Of a DNA stretch of 64,000 bases, positions 18,076 to 25,439 are shown piece after piece. Origin of the DNA: an uncultured bacterium. Lineage in GTDB: Bacteria; Desulfobacterota; Binatia; HRBIN30; CADEER01. A model generated the notes under the pieces. The model was not told the DNA's origin. It saw only the letters and a program-made list of their open reading frames with translations, and did not search any database. A program made the translations under genes and the position numbers. Every line of letters begins with the position of its first letter. Within the stretch, counting starts at the first letter, position 1. The stretch covers positions 1-64,000 of the forward strand of contig CADEER010000003.1 of the NCBI GenBank assembly GCA_902826395.1. The letters run 5' to 3'.

Positions 18076-21000
18076 ATGGGGATCTTTTCTGGGGCGCCTG
18101 CACCCGCCCTGCGGGCGGACGCAGCCGGCAACGCGGTCGAGGGTGCGTCCGGGTCGGATTCACAGGCGCCGCGGTCGCCGCGTGTAGCACGGGAGTCCGG
18201 GGCCGTGGCCACCGGACCGTCGTTTGAGCAATCGCCCATGAGTCCGACCAATGGCGGCGGGCGATCCGCCGGAAGCGGGTCGCTGAAGGACGAGTTGCAG
18301 CGCCTCTACTCGCTTCGTCCGACCCTGGACACGTTCGCCGAAGAGGCGACGCGCCTCATCATCTCCGAATGCAACGTCACGGCGCTGGCAATCTTCACCT
18401 ATGCGCAGCGCAAGGACGAGCTGAACGCCCTGATCCTTTCCGGCTTCGACGATCGGTCGAGTGGTGAGGTGCGCGCCACCGTGGGACGCGCGTGGGATAT
18501 TCCACTGCGCAGCATCCGCAACCGCCGCATCAACGTCATCGTCGACGCGCACAGCAATCCCTTCGTCCCCGAAGCTCTGAAAGTCATCAGCCCGCACAGC
18601 CTCACGATCGCCTCGGTACCGTTCTTCCACAACGGCGCTCCGGTCGGCGTCGCCGTCTTCTTCGCCACCGATCCGAGTGCCTTCAGCGACGCGGTCCTGC
18701 GCGCCGTCAGCCAGGGGCTGCGCGTGTGCGGCGCGGCGATCACCGAGCTGCCGAAGACCATCGTTACGGCCAGTCCGCAGCTCGAGGAGGCGGTTGCGCC
18801 GGAGAGCGGCGAGCAGCCGAGTCTGCTGCGCGGCCTGGCGGCGTTGAAGTCCGAGATGGTCCGCCTCACGACCGCCCTCGAGGAGTCGGAGCGCCAGCGC
18901 GCCGCCGAAGTCGCGGAGCGAGTCACCGCGCAGTCCTTCCTGAAGGCGGCGCAGCAGCGGAGCGAGCGCGCGGAGCACGAGCTCCAGGAACTGCGCGAGA
19001 AACAGAAGCGCATCCCCGAGCTGGAGAAGGAAGGTCAGGAGCTCAGCAAGCGCCTGCAGATCGCCTCCGAGCTGGCCGAGAAGGCCAAGGCGCGCGTCGC
19101 CATCCTGGACGCCGAGCTGGCGGAGACCACGCGCGACAACGAGACGAAGGAGAAGGAGCTCATCGAGCTCCGCACCAAGCGGGCCGAGCTCGAACGCGAC
19201 CTGCAGCGCGCCGCGGATCGCGCCGAACGCCACGAGCAGTCGGCCGCGGAGCTGAACGAGGAGCTGGGTCGGCTCGAGGCGATCAAAGCCGAGGCGGAGA
19301 AGCTGCGCCAGAACCTGGAGCGGACGACCGAGGCTCGCGGCACCGCCGAAGAGCGCATCGCCGAGCTCGAAGCGGCGCTCGGTCAGGCCGAGCAGGCGCG
19401 CAAGGATCTCGCCAAGCAGCTCACCGACTCCAAGTCGGCGCTCGCCTCGACCAGCCAGGAGCGAGAGAGTCTCTACAACGACGCGCTCAAGAGCTGGGAG
19501 AAGCTCGAGGAGATCGAGAAGGCCCGTACCAACCTCGCTCGCGAGCGCGAGGCGTTGCGCACGACCAATGACGGCAACCTGCAGCGCGTCCAGGAGCTCG
19601 AAGCGGTGCGGACCGCGCTCGAGGGACAGCGCAAGGAACAGGCGCAGGCGATCGAGCAGCTCGGCGGGCAGGTCACGGCTCTCGAAGCGCAGCGCCAGCA
19701 GCTGCACGAGGAGCTGGAGCGGATCCGCGGCGACTCGGGGAAGGCCGTTACCGATCTGCGCGAGCAGCTAGAGAAGGTCGATCGCGATCGCACTGTGCTG
19801 TCCGAGCAGATCGCAGCGCTGAAGCTGGTGGAGGAAGAACGCGAGCGCTTGGCAACCCGCGTCGAAGAGCTGGAGAGCGAGTCGGCAGCGGCACGCCGCG
19901 CCAGCGAGCAGCTCGAGATCAAGCTCCAGGAGTTGGGCAAGCAGGCGCAGCGCGTCGAGAATGAACGCGCCGCGTTGCAGGTACGGATCGAAAAGCTGGC
20001 CGAGAGCGAGCAGAACCTCGCGCGCGAGAAGGGCGAGCAGATTTCACAGACGCGCGCTGAGCTGGAGCGCATGCGCGCCGAGCTCTCGGAGCGCGAGGCC
20101 GCCCTCGAAGCGAGTCGGCAGGAGTTCCAGAGCCTGCTCAGCAATGAGCGCAACAAAGCCGACACATCCATCGACGCTCTGCGCAAGCAACTGGAGGACG
20201 TCCAGGAACAACGTCAGGGCATCGAGAAGGAACTGCGGGCGGCGCGCGACGACGAAGCGGTGCGCGACGAGCTGCTAGCCACCGCAGCACAGGAACAGAA
20301 GGTGTTGGCCGAGCAGGTGGCCGCCGCGGCGGAAGAGCGACAGAAGCTCACGGCGAATCTCGATGAGCTGCGCGCCCAGTTGAAGGAGTCGACGGCCGGT
20401 AAGAGCGAGGCGGAGAAGCGCATCGCCGAGATCGAAGAAGCCCTGCGGGTGTTGCGCGACGAGGAGCTTGCGGAAAGTCGCCTCGAGTTGGAGAAGGTTT
20501 TGGAAGAGCGCGCCTCGCTCAGCGAAGCGCTCGAGGCCGCTCAAGAGCGACACTCACTCGAGATCGTCGATCTGCAGGATCAATTGACTCTTGCTCGTCA
20601 GGAGCAGGAGCAGATGTCTCAGGCTCTGGCCGAGAAGGACCACCTGCTGCAGTCCGCCGAGCACGGGCTCACGACCTTGGAGCTCGAAGAGAACGGCGAG
20701 GACGATCTGCCGCTCGAGATCGATCGCAGCGGCGGCAGCGAAGCCGACGAAGACTCGGCGGCGGCGGTCCAGGAGCCAGTGGCCGCGCGTGCCGACGAGA
20801 TCGTCATCCTCGATCTCGAGCCGTTCGTCAGCGCTGCTGCGCAGCTACTGAGCGAGACGGGGCATCGCGTCTTGTCGTTCAAGCCGGAGCCCGAGTCGGC
20901 GACCGAGCTGGCGCAGGCTGCGTTCGCCTGCGCCGCCATCAACCTCGCCGCCCCGGCGGCATGGCCGACCCTGCGCAAGATCCGCAACGGCGCGGGCGTT

Positions 21001-21513
21001 CCGCACACCCCGATGATTGCGTACGCGCTGAGCGAGAACGCGAAAAAGGGCTTCTGGCTCGGCCCGGTCGACTTCGTCACGCTGCCGATCGGCGACACCG
21101 ACCTGAACAAGTTGCTGAGTACGATGGTGCCCAACCTGCGGCGCGTCATCGCGATGAGCCACGACTTCGACGTCATGGAGCAGGTCCGCGCCCAACTCAC
21201 CGGCGCCCGCATCTCGACCGCTATCGTCCTCGACGGGCGACAGGCGCTCGACCTGGTGCCGACCGTGAAACCGCAGGCGGCCGTGCTGCACATGTCGCCG
21301 AACTGTGCCGACGTCTTCCGCGCCGTCGCCGGACTGCGGTCGCAGGAGGAGACGCGCGAGATCCCGATCCTCTTCCTGCTCGATCACGAGGCGCAGCCGC
21401 GCGAGGAGTCGTTCGTCACGGCCGGCATCCGCATGCTGAGTGGCCGCGGAACCCTGGCGCCGGACACCCTGCCCAAATCGCTGGTCAACGCCTTCGAGAG
21501 CTTCCAGCACTGA
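18076..21513 (+). CDS. GAF / long coiled-coil / double pseudo-receiver protein
   Basis: 1,145 residues from an ATG at 18076 with GGGGGAAAC upstream; an ATG at 18238 is an alternative, as the first 54 residues are low-complexity. A GAF-like domain (about 75-235) is followed by about 600 residues of heptad-rich coiled coil (260-880, Glu/Lys/Arg/Leu-rich), an acidic linker and two tandem receiver-like folds (about 905-1015 and 1020-1140). Both lack the acceptor Asp: the strand-3 site reads INLAAP in the first and VLHMSP in the second. No membrane segment or signal peptide. Coiled-coil proteins with degenerate receivers, such as AglZ and FrzS of Myxococcus, organise cell-polarity machines, so a cytoskeletal or scaffold role is plausible but inferred. 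Confidence 0.8.
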   Translation: MGIFSGAPAPALRADAAGNAVEGASGSDSQAPRSPRVARESGAVATGPSFEQSPMSPTNGGGRSAGSGSLKDELQRLYSLRPTLDTFAEEATRLIISECNVTALAIFTYAQRKDELNALILSGFDDRSSGEVRATVGRAWDIPLRSIRNRRINVIVDAHSNPFVPEALKVISPHSLTIASVPFFHNGAPVGVAVFFATDPSAFSDAVLRAVSQGLRVCGAAITELPKTIVTASPQLEEAVAPESGEQPSLLRGLAALKSEMVRLTTALEESERQRAAEVAERVTAQSFLKAAQQRSERAEHELQELREKQKRIPELEKEGQELSKRLQIASELAEKAKARVAILDAELAETTRDNETKEKELIELRTKRAELERDLQRAADRAERHEQSAAELNEELGRLEAIKAEAEKLRQNLERTTEARGTAEERIAELEAALGQAEQARKDLAKQLTDSKSALASTSQERESLYNDALKSWEKLEEIEKARTNLAREREALRTTNDGNLQRVQELEAVRTALEGQRKEQAQAIEQLGGQVTALEAQRQQLHEELERIRGDSGKAVTDLREQLEKVDRDRTVLSEQIAALKLVEEERERLATRVEELESESAAARRASEQLEIKLQELGKQAQRVENERAALQVRIEKLAESEQNLAREKGEQISQTRAELERMRAELSEREAALEASRQEFQSLLSNERNKADTSIDALRKQLEDVQEQRQGIEKELRAARDDEAVRDELLATAAQEQKVLAEQVAAAAEERQKLTANLDELRAQLKESTAGKSEAEKRIAEIEEALRVLRDEELAESRLELEKVLEERASLSEALEAAQERHSLEIVDLQDQLTLARQEQEQMSQALAEKDHLLQSAEHGLTTLELEENGEDDLPLEIDRSGGSEADEDSAAAVQEPVAARADEIVILDLEPFVSAAAQLLSETGHRVLSFKPEPESATELAQAAFACAAINLAAPAAWPTLRKIRNGAGVPHTPMIAYALSENAKKGFWLGPVDFVTLPIGDTDLNKLLSTMVPNLRRVIAMSHDFDVMEQVRAQLTGARISTAIVLDGRQALDLVPTVKPQAAVLHMSPNCADVFRAVAGLRSQEETREIPILFLLDHEAQPREESFVTAGIRMLSGRGTLAPDTLPKSLVNAFESFQH

Positions 21514-21541: not shown

Positions 21542-23080
21542 CTATCCCTCGCCCCTCGCCCCCCGCCCCTCGCCCCGACGCGATTGCGCGAGCGCAATCG
21601 CGTCCCGCGCGTGATCTCGATCGTCGAACTGAAAGCGCTGGCCGCGAATCAGCTGGTATGGCTCGTGGCCCTTGCCGGCGATGATGACCATGTCGCCGGT
21701 GCTGGCGCCGGCGATGGCGGCGCGGATCGCCACGGCGCGATCGGGCTCGACGATGTGGCGGGCGAGGGCGGGATCGGTAACGCGTGAGCCGACCAGGATC
21801 TCGTCGATGATCGCCTGCGGGTCTTCGTTGCGCGGGTTGTCGGAGGTGACGACGACCAGATCGCTGGCGGCGGCGGCGATGCGACCCATTTCGGGGCGTT
21901 TGCCGCGATCGCGGTCGCCACCGCAGCCGAAGACGGTGATCAGCCGGCGTGGTTGCAGACGCCGCGCGCTGTCGAGCAGGCGCTCGAGCGCGGCGGGCTT
22001 GTGCGCATAGTCGACCGCAACGGCGAAGTCCTGCCCCTCATCGACGACCTCGAAACGTCCGGGAACGGTGTCTGCGCCCTCGAGTGCCGCTGCGATCGCC
22101 GACGGGTGGACGCCGAGGTGCGCGCCGACGGCGGCGGCCGCCAGCGCGTTGTGGACGTTGTAGTCACCGAGGTGACGCAAGCGAACGTCGGCAGATCCCT
22201 TCGGCGTTCGCAGAACGAAACGCAATCCGCTCATCGAGGCATCGACCGACTCGGCGCGCACGTCGGTATCGGGCCCGACACCGTAGCGGAGCAGCGGCGC
22301 GCGGCTACCGGCGATCAAGCGCTGCCATTCGGGATCGTCGGCGTTGACGACCCCGACGGCTGCCTTGCCGCCGCCGCCGAGCGATTCGAAGAGACGCGCC
22401 TTGGCGGCGCGATAGTCGTCCATGTCGGGGTGGAAGTTGAGATGGTCCCGGCTCAGGTTGGTGAAGACGCCGATGTCGAAGTGCACATCGCCGACGCGGT
22501 GCAGAGCCAACGCATGGGAGGAGACCTCCATGGCGACGGCCGTACATGCGGCGTCGACGGCGCGGCGCAACAGACGGTGCACGACGGGTGCTTCCGGAGT
22601 GGTCTGATCGGCGGCGAGGATCTCTTCGCCGATCCGGTAGTCGATGGTGCCGAAACGGGCGACGCGGTGGCCCGCCGCTCGCAATACGGCGTCGACGAAA
22701 TAGCTGGTCGAGGTCTTGCCGGAGGTGCCGGTGATCCCCACGGCGAGCAGGTCCTTCGACGGCTCGCGATGGAAGCGGGCGGCGGCTCGCGCCGCGGCCC
22801 GCCACGGATCGCGCACGCGCACCACCGTCACCGGCGCATCGACGGCCACGTCGCGCTCGACGGCGAGGGCGATCGCACCGTCGCGAACCGCCTGCTCGGC
22901 GTACGCGTGCCGATCAGCCAGCGATTCTCCGCCGGCGGCGCGGTAACCGGGCAGGCAGGCGAAGAGGTAGCCGGGTGCGACGAGGCGAGAGTCTGTGGCG
23001 ACGCCGGTCACCTCGACGTCCGCGTCTCCCCGGATCGAGACGATGTCGTTGCGATCGAAGAGGTCGGCCAGGCGCGGCAA
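21542..23080 (-). CDS. murE: UDP-N-acetylmuramoyl-tripeptide synthase MurE
   Basis: 512-residue Mur ligase. ATP-binding loop GITGTSGKTSTS, the tyrosine-rich region with TTPE and GVFTNLSRDHLNFH (a Mur-ligase signature), and DNPRNEDP, the motif associated with meso-diaminopimelate selection in MurE. It adds meso-DAP to UDP-MurNAc-L-Ala-D-Glu in the cytoplasm. It is not in a division-cell-wall cluster: the only neighbour in its operon is a helical protein of unknown role 5 bp upstream. The last ten residues (GEGRGARGEG) are encoded by a heptamer DNA repeat, and a 28-bp perfect palindrome lies in the preceding codons. Confidence 0.95.
   Translation of the reverse strand: MPRLADLFDRNDIVSIRGDADVEVTGVATDSRLVAPGYLFACLPGYRAAGGESLADRHAYAEQAVRDGAIALAVERDVAVDAPVTVVRVRDPWRAAARAAARFHREPSKDLLAVGITGTSGKTSTSYFVDAVLRAAGHRVARFGTIDYRIGEEILAADQTTPEAPVVHRLLRRAVDAACTAVAMEVSSHALALHRVGDVHFDIGVFTNLSRDHLNFHPDMDDYRAAKARLFESLGGGGKAAVGVVNADDPEWQRLIAGSRAPLLRYGVGPDTDVRAESVDASMSGLRFVLRTPKGSADVRLRHLGDYNVHNALAAAAVGAHLGVHPSAIAAALEGADTVPGRFEVVDEGQDFAVAVDYAHKPAALERLLDSARRLQPRRLITVFGCGGDRDRGKRPEMGRIAAAASDLVVVTSDNPRNEDPQAIIDEILVGSRVTDPALARHIVEPDRAVAIRAAIAGASTGDMVIIAGKGHEPYQLIRGQRFQFDDRDHARDAIALAQSRRGEGRGARGEG
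21548..21575. repeat. Four tandem heptamers CTCGCCC
   Basis: Four consecutive units (48-54, 55-61, 62-68, 69-75), the third with one change, lie within the last codons of murE and give it a Gly/Arg/Glu-rich tail. The same G-rich unit in the other strand (GGGCGAG) recurs near 26755 and 26790. Confidence 0.85.
21577..21604. terminator. Perfect 28-bp palindrome at the end of murE
   Basis: GACGCGATTGCGC (21577-21589) and its exact complement (21592-21604) flank a 2-bp centre. It lies in the last murE codons between two convergent genes, only 64 bp from the end of the pseudo-receiver gene, so it could serve as a two-way transcription barrier. There is no T-run, so a terminator role is inferred. 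Confidence 0.5.
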
Positions 23081-23085
23081 AGGTT

Positions 23086-23625
23086 CTACGACTCCGGCGC
23101 CGCGGATGCTTCGCCGGCCGGTGTATCGCCGGCGTCGTCTTTCGTCGCGCCGCTCGTGTCCGCCGGCGGCATGGTGCGCAGCTTCTCCGCGACGTCGGGT
23201 ACCGCCTTTAGAATCATATCGATGCGAGCTCTGTCGGGGCCGACGAGGCTAGCCAACTGGCTTTCGTAACGGCGGATGTGACCATCGATCTCGTCCGACT
23301 TGTCCTCGATGATGCGGTCGCGTTCACCGAGGCACGCATTGATGTCTTCGGCGATCTTCTCGAGCGCCTTCTCGCCGTCCTCGCCGAGGCGTTGATTGAT
23401 CTGCTCGGCCCACAGGCTGTGGATCGCGATGGTAGCCGGTACCTCGCGCCGCAAGCCGCCGGTCAGGGTGTAGAGCTGACTGGCCAATCGCGACGGCGAG
23501 CTCGCTTTGCGCCGCGTTACCAGAGCGTTCAGCCGCACCAGCTTGTCGCGCAGGCGCTGCAGGCCGTGGTCGTCGGCGAGAAACTCGATGAGCTGGTTGA
23601 ATTCCTCGACTTTGAGGTTTGCCAT
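23086..23625 (-). CDS. Helical protein of unknown function, first gene of the murE operon
   Basis: 179 residues, no signal peptide or membrane helix. Almost entirely helical with charged residues (MANLKVEEFNQLIEFLADDHGLQRLRDKLVRLNALVT; DGEKALEKIAEDINACLGERDRIIED), ending in a disordered Ala/Pro/Asp tail. I do not recognise a family. It precedes murE by 5 bp and is probably co-transcribed. ATG at 23625 is chosen over a longer frame to 23661 because the extension is Arg-rich and unrelated to the helical core; GGGAG lies almost directly against the ATG, an unusually short spacing. Confidence 0.6.
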   Translation of the reverse strand: MANLKVEEFNQLIEFLADDHGLQRLRDKLVRLNALVTRRKASSPSRLASQLYTLTGGLRREVPATIAIHSLWAEQINQRLGEDGEKALEKIAEDINACLGERDRIIEDKSDEIDGHIRRYESQLASLVGPDRARIDMILKAVPDVAEKLRTMPPADTSGATKDDAGDTPAGEASAAPES

Positions 23626-23733
23626 CTCCCTGTGCTTGCCTGCCCTCGGTCGGAGTGTCAACGGTGGTTGGCTCGAGCTTGCCGGCTGCGACCGTCGAAC
23701 GGCGAGAGCGAAGGAGCAATCGGGATCGGTCTG

Positions 23734-25014
23734 ATGCGGTGGCTGGCGCTTTCAGCGGTGGTGATCCTCGCGGCGTGCGCATCGCGCGATGCGATCGACG
23801 AGAACGAGTGCGAGCTGCGCGTCGGAATCAGCGGCGACTACGCCCCTTTCGCTCTCGCCGACGGTGACGACATCGACGGGCTCGACGTCGATCTGGCCCG
23901 GCGGCTCGGCGTCGATCTGGGTTGCCGCGTCGAGCTGGTGCAGTTTGCCTGGCCGGACCTTCTCGAACGGCTCGGGCGCGGCGACTTCGAGCTCGCGCTG
24001 GGCGGCATCACCATGCGAGCGGAGCGGGCGCTGCGCGGCATCTATTCGCGCCCCTACGCGCGCACGGGAGTGACGGTGCTGACCCGTCGCGACAGCGCTT
24101 TGCAGTCACTGACTGATCTGAATCGGCCGGAGGTGCGCGTCGCGGTCAATCGCGGCGGCCATCTCGAGCGCTGGGCGCGCGCCAATCTCGTTCGTGCCGA
24201 TCTGCGACCGACCTCCGACAATCGCAGCCTTCCCGTGTTGCTTGCGGAGGCGCGAGTAGACGCGATCGTGACCGACAGCGCCGAGGCGCGCGATTGGGCG
24301 GACGCCGGCCGCCTTCTCGGTCCGTACTCCACCGACTACAAGGCCGTCCTCGTCGCCGCGCCGCACGCCGCCCTGGCGGCTCAGATCGACGCGTGGCTCG
24401 CCGCCCGCGAGGTGGACGGCTGGCTTGCGAGCCTGCGCACCCGCCATCTCGGCGATGTTCAGGCGGAGAATGCGAGATCGGCGACTCGGCAATCGATCGC
24501 GGCGCTGGTGAGGTTGCGCCTGTGGCTGATGCCGCTGGTCGCGGCCGCCAAACGGGCCAGCGGATCTCCGGTCGTCGATGCGGCGCAGGAGCGCCTGGTC
24601 ATCGAGCGCGCTCGCTCGTGGAGCGGCGATCCCGGCCCGCGGATCGATGCGGTCTTCGCGGCGTTGATCGAGCTCGCGAAGCTCGTCCAGGAGCGCAGCG
24701 CGCCGGCGGATGCTCCGCCCCCGCTCGCAGTGCTGCGCGACGCCATCGCCCGCATCGACCGCCAACTGGTGCGTGAGATCGACCGCATCGAAGATGCCCC
24801 GCTGTCCGACGAATCGCCGCGGGACGCATGGGACGCCGAGCTCGCGCCGGTCGTGCAGGATCTGCCGTTGCGCGTGTCCGACCTCGATGTCTTGGCGAAT
24901 GCCCTGCGCGGAGAGCGCGGGCAAGTCGTTGCGCCAGGCGCCCGCGCGCCGAGCGGTCAGTTCTTTGCGGCGCTCGAGCGGCGGGCGCGGGCGCAATCCT
25001 GGCAGATGCCGTAG
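23734..25014 (+). CDS. Periplasmic lipoprotein: cyclohexadienyl/prephenate dehydratase (PheC-like) fused to gamma-AroQ chorismate mutase
   Basis: 426 residues. A lipobox (VVILAACASRD) precedes a family-3 solute-binding fold (about 25-245) whose sequence tracks PheC, the periplasmic cyclohexadienyl dehydratase: LRVGISGDYAPF, 'DGLDVDLARRLGVDLG', 'FELALGGITMRAERA', VRVAVNRGGHLERWARANL and DAIVTDSAEARD. A second, helical domain (about 254-320) follows: LVRLRLWLMPLVAAAKRASGSPVVDAAQERLVIERA ... FAALIELAKLVQE, the pattern of secreted gamma-class AroQ (early Arg, Lys, later Arg, Glu and Gln of the active site). Together they would turn chorismate to prephenate to phenylpyruvate outside the cytoplasm. 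The 3' 58 bp overlap the convergent Fur gene. Confidence 0.82.
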   Translation: MRWLALSAVVILAACASRDAIDENECELRVGISGDYAPFALADGDDIDGLDVDLARRLGVDLGCRVELVQFAWPDLLERLGRGDFELALGGITMRAERALRGIYSRPYARTGVTVLTRRDSALQSLTDLNRPEVRVAVNRGGHLERWARANLVRADLRPTSDNRSLPVLLAEARVDAIVTDSAEARDWADAGRLLGPYSTDYKAVLVAAPHAALAAQIDAWLAAREVDGWLASLRTRHLGDVQAENARSATRQSIAALVRLRLWLMPLVAAAKRASGSPVVDAAQERLVIERARSWSGDPGPRIDAVFAALIELAKLVQERSAPADAPPPLAVLRDAIARIDRQLVREIDRIEDAPLSDESPRDAWDAELAPVVQDLPLRVSDLDVLANALRGERGQVVAPGARAPSGQFFAALERRARAQSWQMP

Positions 25015-25439
25015 AGCTCCATCTTGTGGCCGCGCAGCTCGAAGCCGAGGCGGCGCGCGGTCTCTTCCTGGAGATTCTCGATGCGGCGCTCTTCGAACTC
25101 GACGATCTTGCCGCAGCGCTCGCAGATCAGATGGTCGTGGTGCGACTTCTCCGCCATCTCGTAGCGGGCTTCGCCATTGCGGAAGTGCCGCTCGTCGGCG
25201 ACGCCGCACTCGGTGAGAAGCTTCATCGTCCTGTACACCGTCGCGTAGCCGATGCCCGGATGGCGCTTGCGGACACGCCCGTAGAGCTCTTCGACGCTGG
25301 CGTGGCCGGCACTGTCGAGGAAAACCTCGACGATCGCATCACGCTGTGCCGTCGACTTCAGCTTTTGCTCGCGCAGATAGGCTTTGAAGCGAGCAAAAGC
25401 GTCATTCGTTGAGCGCGTCGCCTTCGCCATCGTCGCCAA
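24957..25439 (-). CDS. Fur-family transcriptional regulator
   Basis: 160 residues. Winged-helix half: STAQRDAIVEVFLDSAGHASVEELYGRVRKRHPGIGYATVYRTMKLLTECGV. Dimer/metal half: HHDHLICERCGKIVEFEE plus a second CQDC near the end, so both Zn-binding CxxC pairs and the regulatory HHDH cluster are present. It could be Fur, PerR or Zur; the specificity cannot be called. ATG 25439 or 25430. It overlaps the 3' end of an unknown gene upstream by 38 bp, and its own 3' end overlaps the PheC-AroQ fusion antisense. Confidence 0.92.
   Translation of the reverse strand: MATMAKATRSTNDAFARFKAYLREQKLKSTAQRDAIVEVFLDSAGHASVEELYGRVRKRHPGIGYATVYRTMKLLTECGVADERHFRNGEARYEMAEKSHHDHLICERCGKIVEFEERRIENLQEETARRLGFELRGHKMELYGICQDCARARRSSAAKN

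Follow-up and report, generated by a model that had tools for sequence, protein, structure and literature searches.

An exported cyclohexadienyl dehydratase-chorismate mutase fusion from the Binatia belongs to a large clade with a replaced dehydratase pocket

The window (the whole stretch of DNA analysed, 64,000 nucleotides of contig CADEER010000003.1 from an uncultured member of the Binatia) encodes an exported protein in which one chain carries a domain derived from cyclohexadienyl dehydratase (CDT) in its N-terminal half and, in its C-terminal half, an AroQ-gamma chorismate mutase (CM). Exported fusions of these two activities are already established as a kind, and to this extent the idea of the original prediction is not new: they have been described, in both CM-CDT and CDT-CM orders and with kinetics and crystal structures, from nine beta- and gamma-proteobacterial species, and were called extremely rare in 2023 (Stocker et al. 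2023, PMC10520331). The window protein falls in a clade distinct from, and much larger than, that of these published fusions, and what is new here is this clade, with its replaced dehydratase pocket, together with a large expansion of the known range of exported CDT-CM fusions. The explanation that we favour, and regard as probable, is an exported two-step enzyme in which an active CM is joined to a CDT-derived dehydratase that has diverged. The analysis establishes the architecture, ancestry, residue conservation and distribution of the protein, whereas we infer its activities, its substrate and its role. The features of the gene are as follows.

23734..25014, forward strand: whole gene of the 426-residue exported CDT-CM fusion lipoprotein (intact open reading frame, Pfam SBP_bac_3 and CM_2 matches, orthologues in many genera)
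23734..23778, forward strand: lipoprotein signal peptide, read from the sequence, with lipobox LAAC and Cys15 (23776-23778)
23809..24453, forward strand: domain derived from CDT (PheC-like, with the fold of periplasmic binding proteins), residues 26-240
24070..24072, forward strand: Val113, replacing Lys100 of the Pseudomonas aeruginosa enzyme (PaCDT) in the alignment
24148..24168, forward strand: motif N139-R-G-G-H-L-E145 in place of PaCDT NPGGTNE, with N128 and G131 kept, T132 changed to H143 and N133 to L144
24283..24285, forward strand: Glu184, aligned with the PaCDT general acid Glu173 and invariant in 97 of 97 fusions
24487..24933, forward strand: AroQ-gamma CM domain, residues about 252-400 (Pfam, family profile and fold)

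The reading frame runs from an ATG at 23734 to a stop codon at 25012-25014, with coding-like GC3, and its product begins with a lipoprotein signal, MRWLALSAVVILAAC; the single intact lipoprotein gene that had been predicted here is thus confirmed to the nucleotide. Among 97 family members, a lipobox is found by regular expression in 31, and many of the others have different N-terminal hydrophobic stretches. The AlphaFold model of the full mature protein is of high confidence (pLDDT 91.3, pTM 0.89), and the top matches of the whole model in a Foldseek search are the CDT-CM fusions 8cq4 and 8cq6. The same domain order is kept in dozens of genera, so the succession of a CDT-derived and a CM domain is not a chance arrangement.

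The N-terminal domain matches Pfam SBP_bac_3 over residues 28-240 (E 1.4e-20), and its best relatives among solved structures are cyclohexadienyl dehydratases (5jos, 1.1e-33; 6wup, 2.7e-32; and 8cq4, the JbCDTCM fusion, 6.7e-32), with plain amino-acid-binding proteins scoring behind them, in agreement with the original assignment of this half. A plain amino-acid-binding protein is ruled out by these scores and by the retention of CDT-specific residues, and the protein does not qualify as the binding component of an amino-acid ABC transporter, since CDTs are closer and no permease or ATPase genes are linked to the window gene. In the numbering of PaCDT, which was taken from its own sequence, the window protein retains Y22, W60, R85 and N128 (as Y36, W73, R98 and N139) as well as G131, N152, T169 and E173 (as G142, N163, T180 and E184), the last being the equivalent of the residue identified as the general acid in PaCDT (PMC7683729).

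Of the nine active-site residues of PaCDT, however, the window protein has substitutions at three (K100V, T132H and N133L), as do practically all of its relatives. Across the 97 aligned fusions, a set in which some near-duplicates occur, a few genes having been collected twice by different routes, all but one have Ala, Val or Pro at position 100, His, Tyr, Ile or Val at 132 and Leu or Met at 133. The combinations at 100-132-133 are A-H-L (74 sequences), P-I-L (8), A-Y-L (6), V-H-L (4), A-H-M (2) and P-H-L, P-V-L and K-T-N (1 each), as counted in a collection whose scan used degenerate patterns around the 128-133 motif together with GDY[APL] and so disfavours classical sequences; the 19 homologues retrieved by whole-protein search of related genomes (L002-L020) are all of the replaced-pocket type too. 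N128, G131 and E173 are invariant in all 97, as are, wholly or nearly, Y22, W60, T80, R85 and N152, and of the 217 columns of the domain, 17 reach a conservation of at least 98%, 8 of them being pocket positions. At 128, 131 and 173, the non-catalytic ancestor AncCDT-1 carries Q, T and V instead, and the retention of the three enzyme-specific residues therefore argues for descent from a catalytic CDT with continued selection on the acid. The alignment indicates that the carboxylate-side pocket has been rebuilt in this clade while the general acid has been kept. The structure of JbCDTCM with bound MES shows the sulfonate in direct contact with Thr159 (T132) and bridged by a water molecule to Lys127 (K100) (PMC10520331), and by analogy we infer that the rebuilt 100/132/133 pocket contacts the substrate carboxylate. 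The description of this half as PheC-like thus holds for its ancestry and for E173, N128 and G131, but not for K100, T132 and N133.

The disulfide cysteines of PaCDT are missing from 96 of the 97 fusions, including the window protein. A cysteine pair at C26 and C63 (23809-23811 and 23920-23922) occurs only in the window protein and three homologues of the same genus, and is possibly a lineage-specific disulfide in place of the PaCDT one. In the Archangium, Hyalangium and Sorangium proteins (L043, L060 and L091, respectively), two additional positions of the pocket are altered jointly, D170 to N and the residue equivalent to JbCDTCM K225 to V.

Compared with the beta-proteobacterial CDTCM enzymes (JbCDTCM, 8CQ4; DsCDTCM, 8CQ6; and MpCDTCM), which supply the top Foldseek match of the window model (3.8e-23), the window protein has the same domain order, is likewise exported, shows about 30% identity and shares the CM substitutions K106, Q109 and V76, but in these enzymes the nine PaCDT residues and the disulfide are all present, whereas the window clade has other residues at K100, T132 and N133 and no such disulfide. 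The superposition of the whole window model on 8cq4 is poor (rmsd 23.5, TM 0.48), while most matches over the CDT domain alone have rmsd values of 1.9-2.5, which hints at a domain arrangement in the model different from that of 8cq4. The gamma-proteobacterial CMCDT enzymes (AfCMCDT, 8CQ3; and ScCMCDT) also combine the two functions in one exported chain, but with the inverted domain order and a fully conserved CDT active site. PheC of P. aeruginosa (PaCDT; 5HPQ, 3KBR) shares its fold with the window protein (rmsd 2.5 for 3kbr across 225 columns), along with Glu173 and the greater part of the pocket; it differs in being monofunctional and at K100, T132, N133 and the disulfide.

For the C-terminal domain, the assignment as a secreted-type AroQ stands on the family profile and the fold, the single sequence being weak. 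In the window protein CM_2 is matched over residues 255-320 at E 3.2e-6 and 27.7 bits, where Pfam requires 27, and the cut-off of NCBIfam TIGR01806 is failed by the window protein taken alone (25.1 versus 74.15 bits), a model matched at E 1e-5 or better by 56 of 57 family members; as a single sequence against solved structures, this half gives a best E of 0.013. A profile built from 50 family CM domains finds full-length AroQ-gamma enzymes (Burkholderia 6cnz, 1.7e-24; Y. pestis 2gbb, 3.8e-20; M. tuberculosis 2f6l, 4.2e-15), and the domain model (pLDDT 86.2) is placed by Foldseek on secreted-type CMs, alone or within the published fusions, with probability 1.00 (TM 0.64/0.76 for 2gbb). A chance helical C-terminus is excluded by profile, fold and conservation.

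Relative to the M. tuberculosis enzyme (MtCM), the window residues are R262 (R49), K273 (K60), D282 (D69), Q285 (R72), E286 (position 73), V289 (Q76), A315 (T105), K316 (E106), Q319 (E109) and R335 (R134). The helical-bundle fold, export and R49, K60 and R134 are thus common to the window protein and the monofunctional secreted AroQ-gamma enzymes (MtCM, 2FP2; Y. pestis, 2GBB; Burkholderia, 6CNZ), from the first of which it differs by T105A, E106K, E109Q and Q76V. In the family sequences that cover them, R49, K60 and Glu73 are invariant, and R134 is nearly so. The catalytic set proposed originally is therefore kept at R49, K60 and R134 but changed at R72 and E109, both of which are Gln. The E109Q change is also found in active fusions (PMC10520331), with which the A/K/Q at 105/106/109 agrees as a whole, and Gln at position 72 occurs in the secreted Y. 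pestis sequence as well; with R49, K60 and R134 kept, the CM domain is on these grounds likely to be active.

In the favoured explanation, the window gene would give rise to a lipid-anchored, extracytoplasmic bifunctional enzyme, the AroQ-gamma domain of which would convert chorismate to prephenate, while the CDT-derived domain, with Glu184 as the acid, would eliminate water and CO2, acting on the CM product or on a transaminated form of it, to yield phenylpyruvate or phenylalanine. Since the carboxylate/side-chain pocket is rebuilt (Lys100 to Ala or Val, Thr132-Asn133 to His-Leu), substrate preference or kinetics probably differ from those of PheC and the published fusions, and because three of nine active-site residues are replaced, the proposal of two consecutive steps to phenylpyruvate in one exported chain is graded as no more than plausible. 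In its support, all soluble variants of the published fusions that were assayed have both activities, with a CM Km below 7 uM and neither channelling nor feedback (PMC10520331), those of the CDTCM type having the same domain order; the invariance of N128, G131 and E173 and the CM residues shared with these active enzymes point the same way. It is weakened by the loss of the charged Lys100 and two further residues from essentially the whole clade, by the missing disulfide cysteines, and by a CM domain that lies barely above the Pfam cut-off and far below that of TIGR01806, with Gln at Arg72. The literature search found no assay of any CDT variant with K100, T132 and N133 replaced.

The strongest rival holds that the CM is ordinary and that the CDT-derived domain has moved to another substrate or reaction, being specific for arogenate or acting as some other cyclohexadienyl or keto-acid dehydratase, with His143 and Leu144 defining the new pocket. 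The coordinated nature of the replacement at 100, 132 and 133 speaks for such a shift, as does the 98% conservation of Leu at 133 alongside an invariant general acid, which suggests that the new pocket is itself under selection, and the BNR sialidase-like domain added by Acidobacteriota members is an unexpected partner for phenylalanine chemistry. The domain nevertheless remains fused to a CM, the product of which is prephenate, and wild-type PaCDT has been deposited both as a cyclohexadienyl and as an arogenate dehydratase, so that loss of Lys100 is unnecessary for arogenate; as a full account of the protein we consider this shift rather unlikely.

Next in strength, but improbable, is a reversion of the N-terminal domain to binding or sensing, in which prephenate or its product would be captured for signalling or uptake without catalysis. 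The retained binding-protein fold, the loss of Lys100, Thr132 and Asn133 and the signalling roles suggested for the published fusions (PMC10520331) would suit such a protein, against which stand the enzyme-specific residues that the binding ancestor lacks and the lack of a recurrent ABC permease, chemoreceptor or other partner beside the gene. That the gene is a degenerate or non-functional relic, as might be suggested by the marginal CM score of the window copy and its altered catalytic residues, is very hard to credit given its open frame and coding-like GC3, pocket residues that are invariant across phyla, and its maintenance both in 27 of the 72 genera of the class and in cultured Archangium, Hyalangium and Sorangium.

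Fusions of the window clade are widespread. A scan of GTDB genomes yielded 222 loci encoding relatives, of which 80 were kept, from Myxococcota, Binatia/Binatota, Acidobacteriota, one member of the Bacteroidota (Xanthovirga) and others. At E 1e-60 or better, the fusion is present in 43 of 148 genomes of the window's class, distributed over 27 of its 72 genera, whereas in a phylum-wide sample of 297 genomes outside that class matches were confined to the binding-protein domain. It occurs in 15 of 195 genomes, nearly all of them large, in a sample of the phylum around Archangium (cultured myxobacterial hosts include Archangium, Hyalangium and Sorangium), and 9 of 199 sampled Acidobacteriota genomes gave matches, one of them over the CDT part only. 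The literature search found no paper linking CDT-CM fusions with Myxococcota or Binatota. In a tree of the CDT domain, the window clade is set apart with support of 100/99 and the beta-proteobacterial fusions fall inside the PheC side; forcing all CDT-CM fusions into a single clade carries a cost of 14.1 log units (p-AU 0.112), and independent fusion origins are thus favoured by the best tree, with a single origin not rejected.

Several individual loci deserve mention. A Pseudomonadota metagenome-assembled genome (MAG) encodes a CDT-CM fusion (L098:5977-7164) with the classical K/T/N pocket and PaCDT-type cysteines, and is related to the beta-proteobacterial enzymes already described. The fusion of the window clade also turns up in two MAG records under the title Klebsiella pneumoniae (L031 and L059); the N-terminal sequences of these two copies equal those of L013 (G051, of the window's class) and L019 (G032), respectively, and the titles are therefore probably mislabels. 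In the Acidobacteriota, three-part open reading frames of 792-799 residues (L097:4702-7101 and L094:4732-7110) join a BNR_2 sialidase-like, a CDT-like and a CM part in that order, the CDT-like part having P-I-L at the pocket; long frames are also present in L095 and L100, and open frames of 785-1030 residues in sampled Acidobacteriota genomes.

A more far-reaching version, which can be put forward tentatively, is that the CM feeds prephenate to a CDT-derived domain whose A/V-H-L pocket gives it a new substrate or product across Myxococcota, Binatia and Acidobacteriota; if true, the new-pocket clade, joined by a sialidase-like domain in Acidobacteriota, would be an unrecognised extracytoplasmic branch of shikimate metabolism. 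Exported chorismate-to-phenylpyruvate fusions, previously thought a curiosity of nine proteobacterial species, now extend to a far larger clade in several phyla, and the coordinated pocket change constitutes a natural experiment in the remodelling of a binding-protein-derived enzyme after catalysis was gained.

The genomic surroundings bear on the role of the protein. The window gene stands by itself, flanked by genes of the opposite orientation and without a linked ABC transporter; its neighbours are as follows.

21542-23080, reverse strand: Mur ligase
23086-23661, reverse strand: 191-residue protein without a Pfam match
24957-25439, reverse strand: Fur-family regulator, overlapping the 3' end of the fusion gene convergently by 58 bp

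In many relatives, mostly from MAGs labelled Myxococcota, the fusion gene again stands alone between opposing genes, and the products of its neighbours resemble, by their sequences, glutamine-dependent NAD synthetase, cold-shock-domain, queuosine-salvage and lipid kinase proteins; across the relatives' loci, neither a transporter nor an ABC permease, a chemoreceptor or any other partner was found to recur beside the gene. A conserved operon partner or transporter was rejected when GC3-filtered clustering of neighbours gave lineage-specific neighbours only. A cytosolic PheA-type prephenate dehydratase was found in every genome tested (39 of 39 relatives, with CM_2 adjacent, and 6 of 6 others), which rules out a replacement for absent cytosolic phenylalanine synthesis and means that the supply of phenylalanine does not depend on the exported copy. 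Rather than housekeeping synthesis, its likeliest role would be the handling of extracytoplasmic chorismate or prephenate, whether as overflow, scavenging or signalling, and the cultured hosts make the purpose of this processing testable by deletion. Further upstream in the window, 18076-21513 (forward strand) encodes a 1145-residue protein that is weakly GAF-like at its N-terminus and has a long stretch of charged, coiled-coil-like sequence; in L021 and L022, the corresponding position upstream of the Mur ligase gene is taken by frames of similar length (1122 and 1119 residues).
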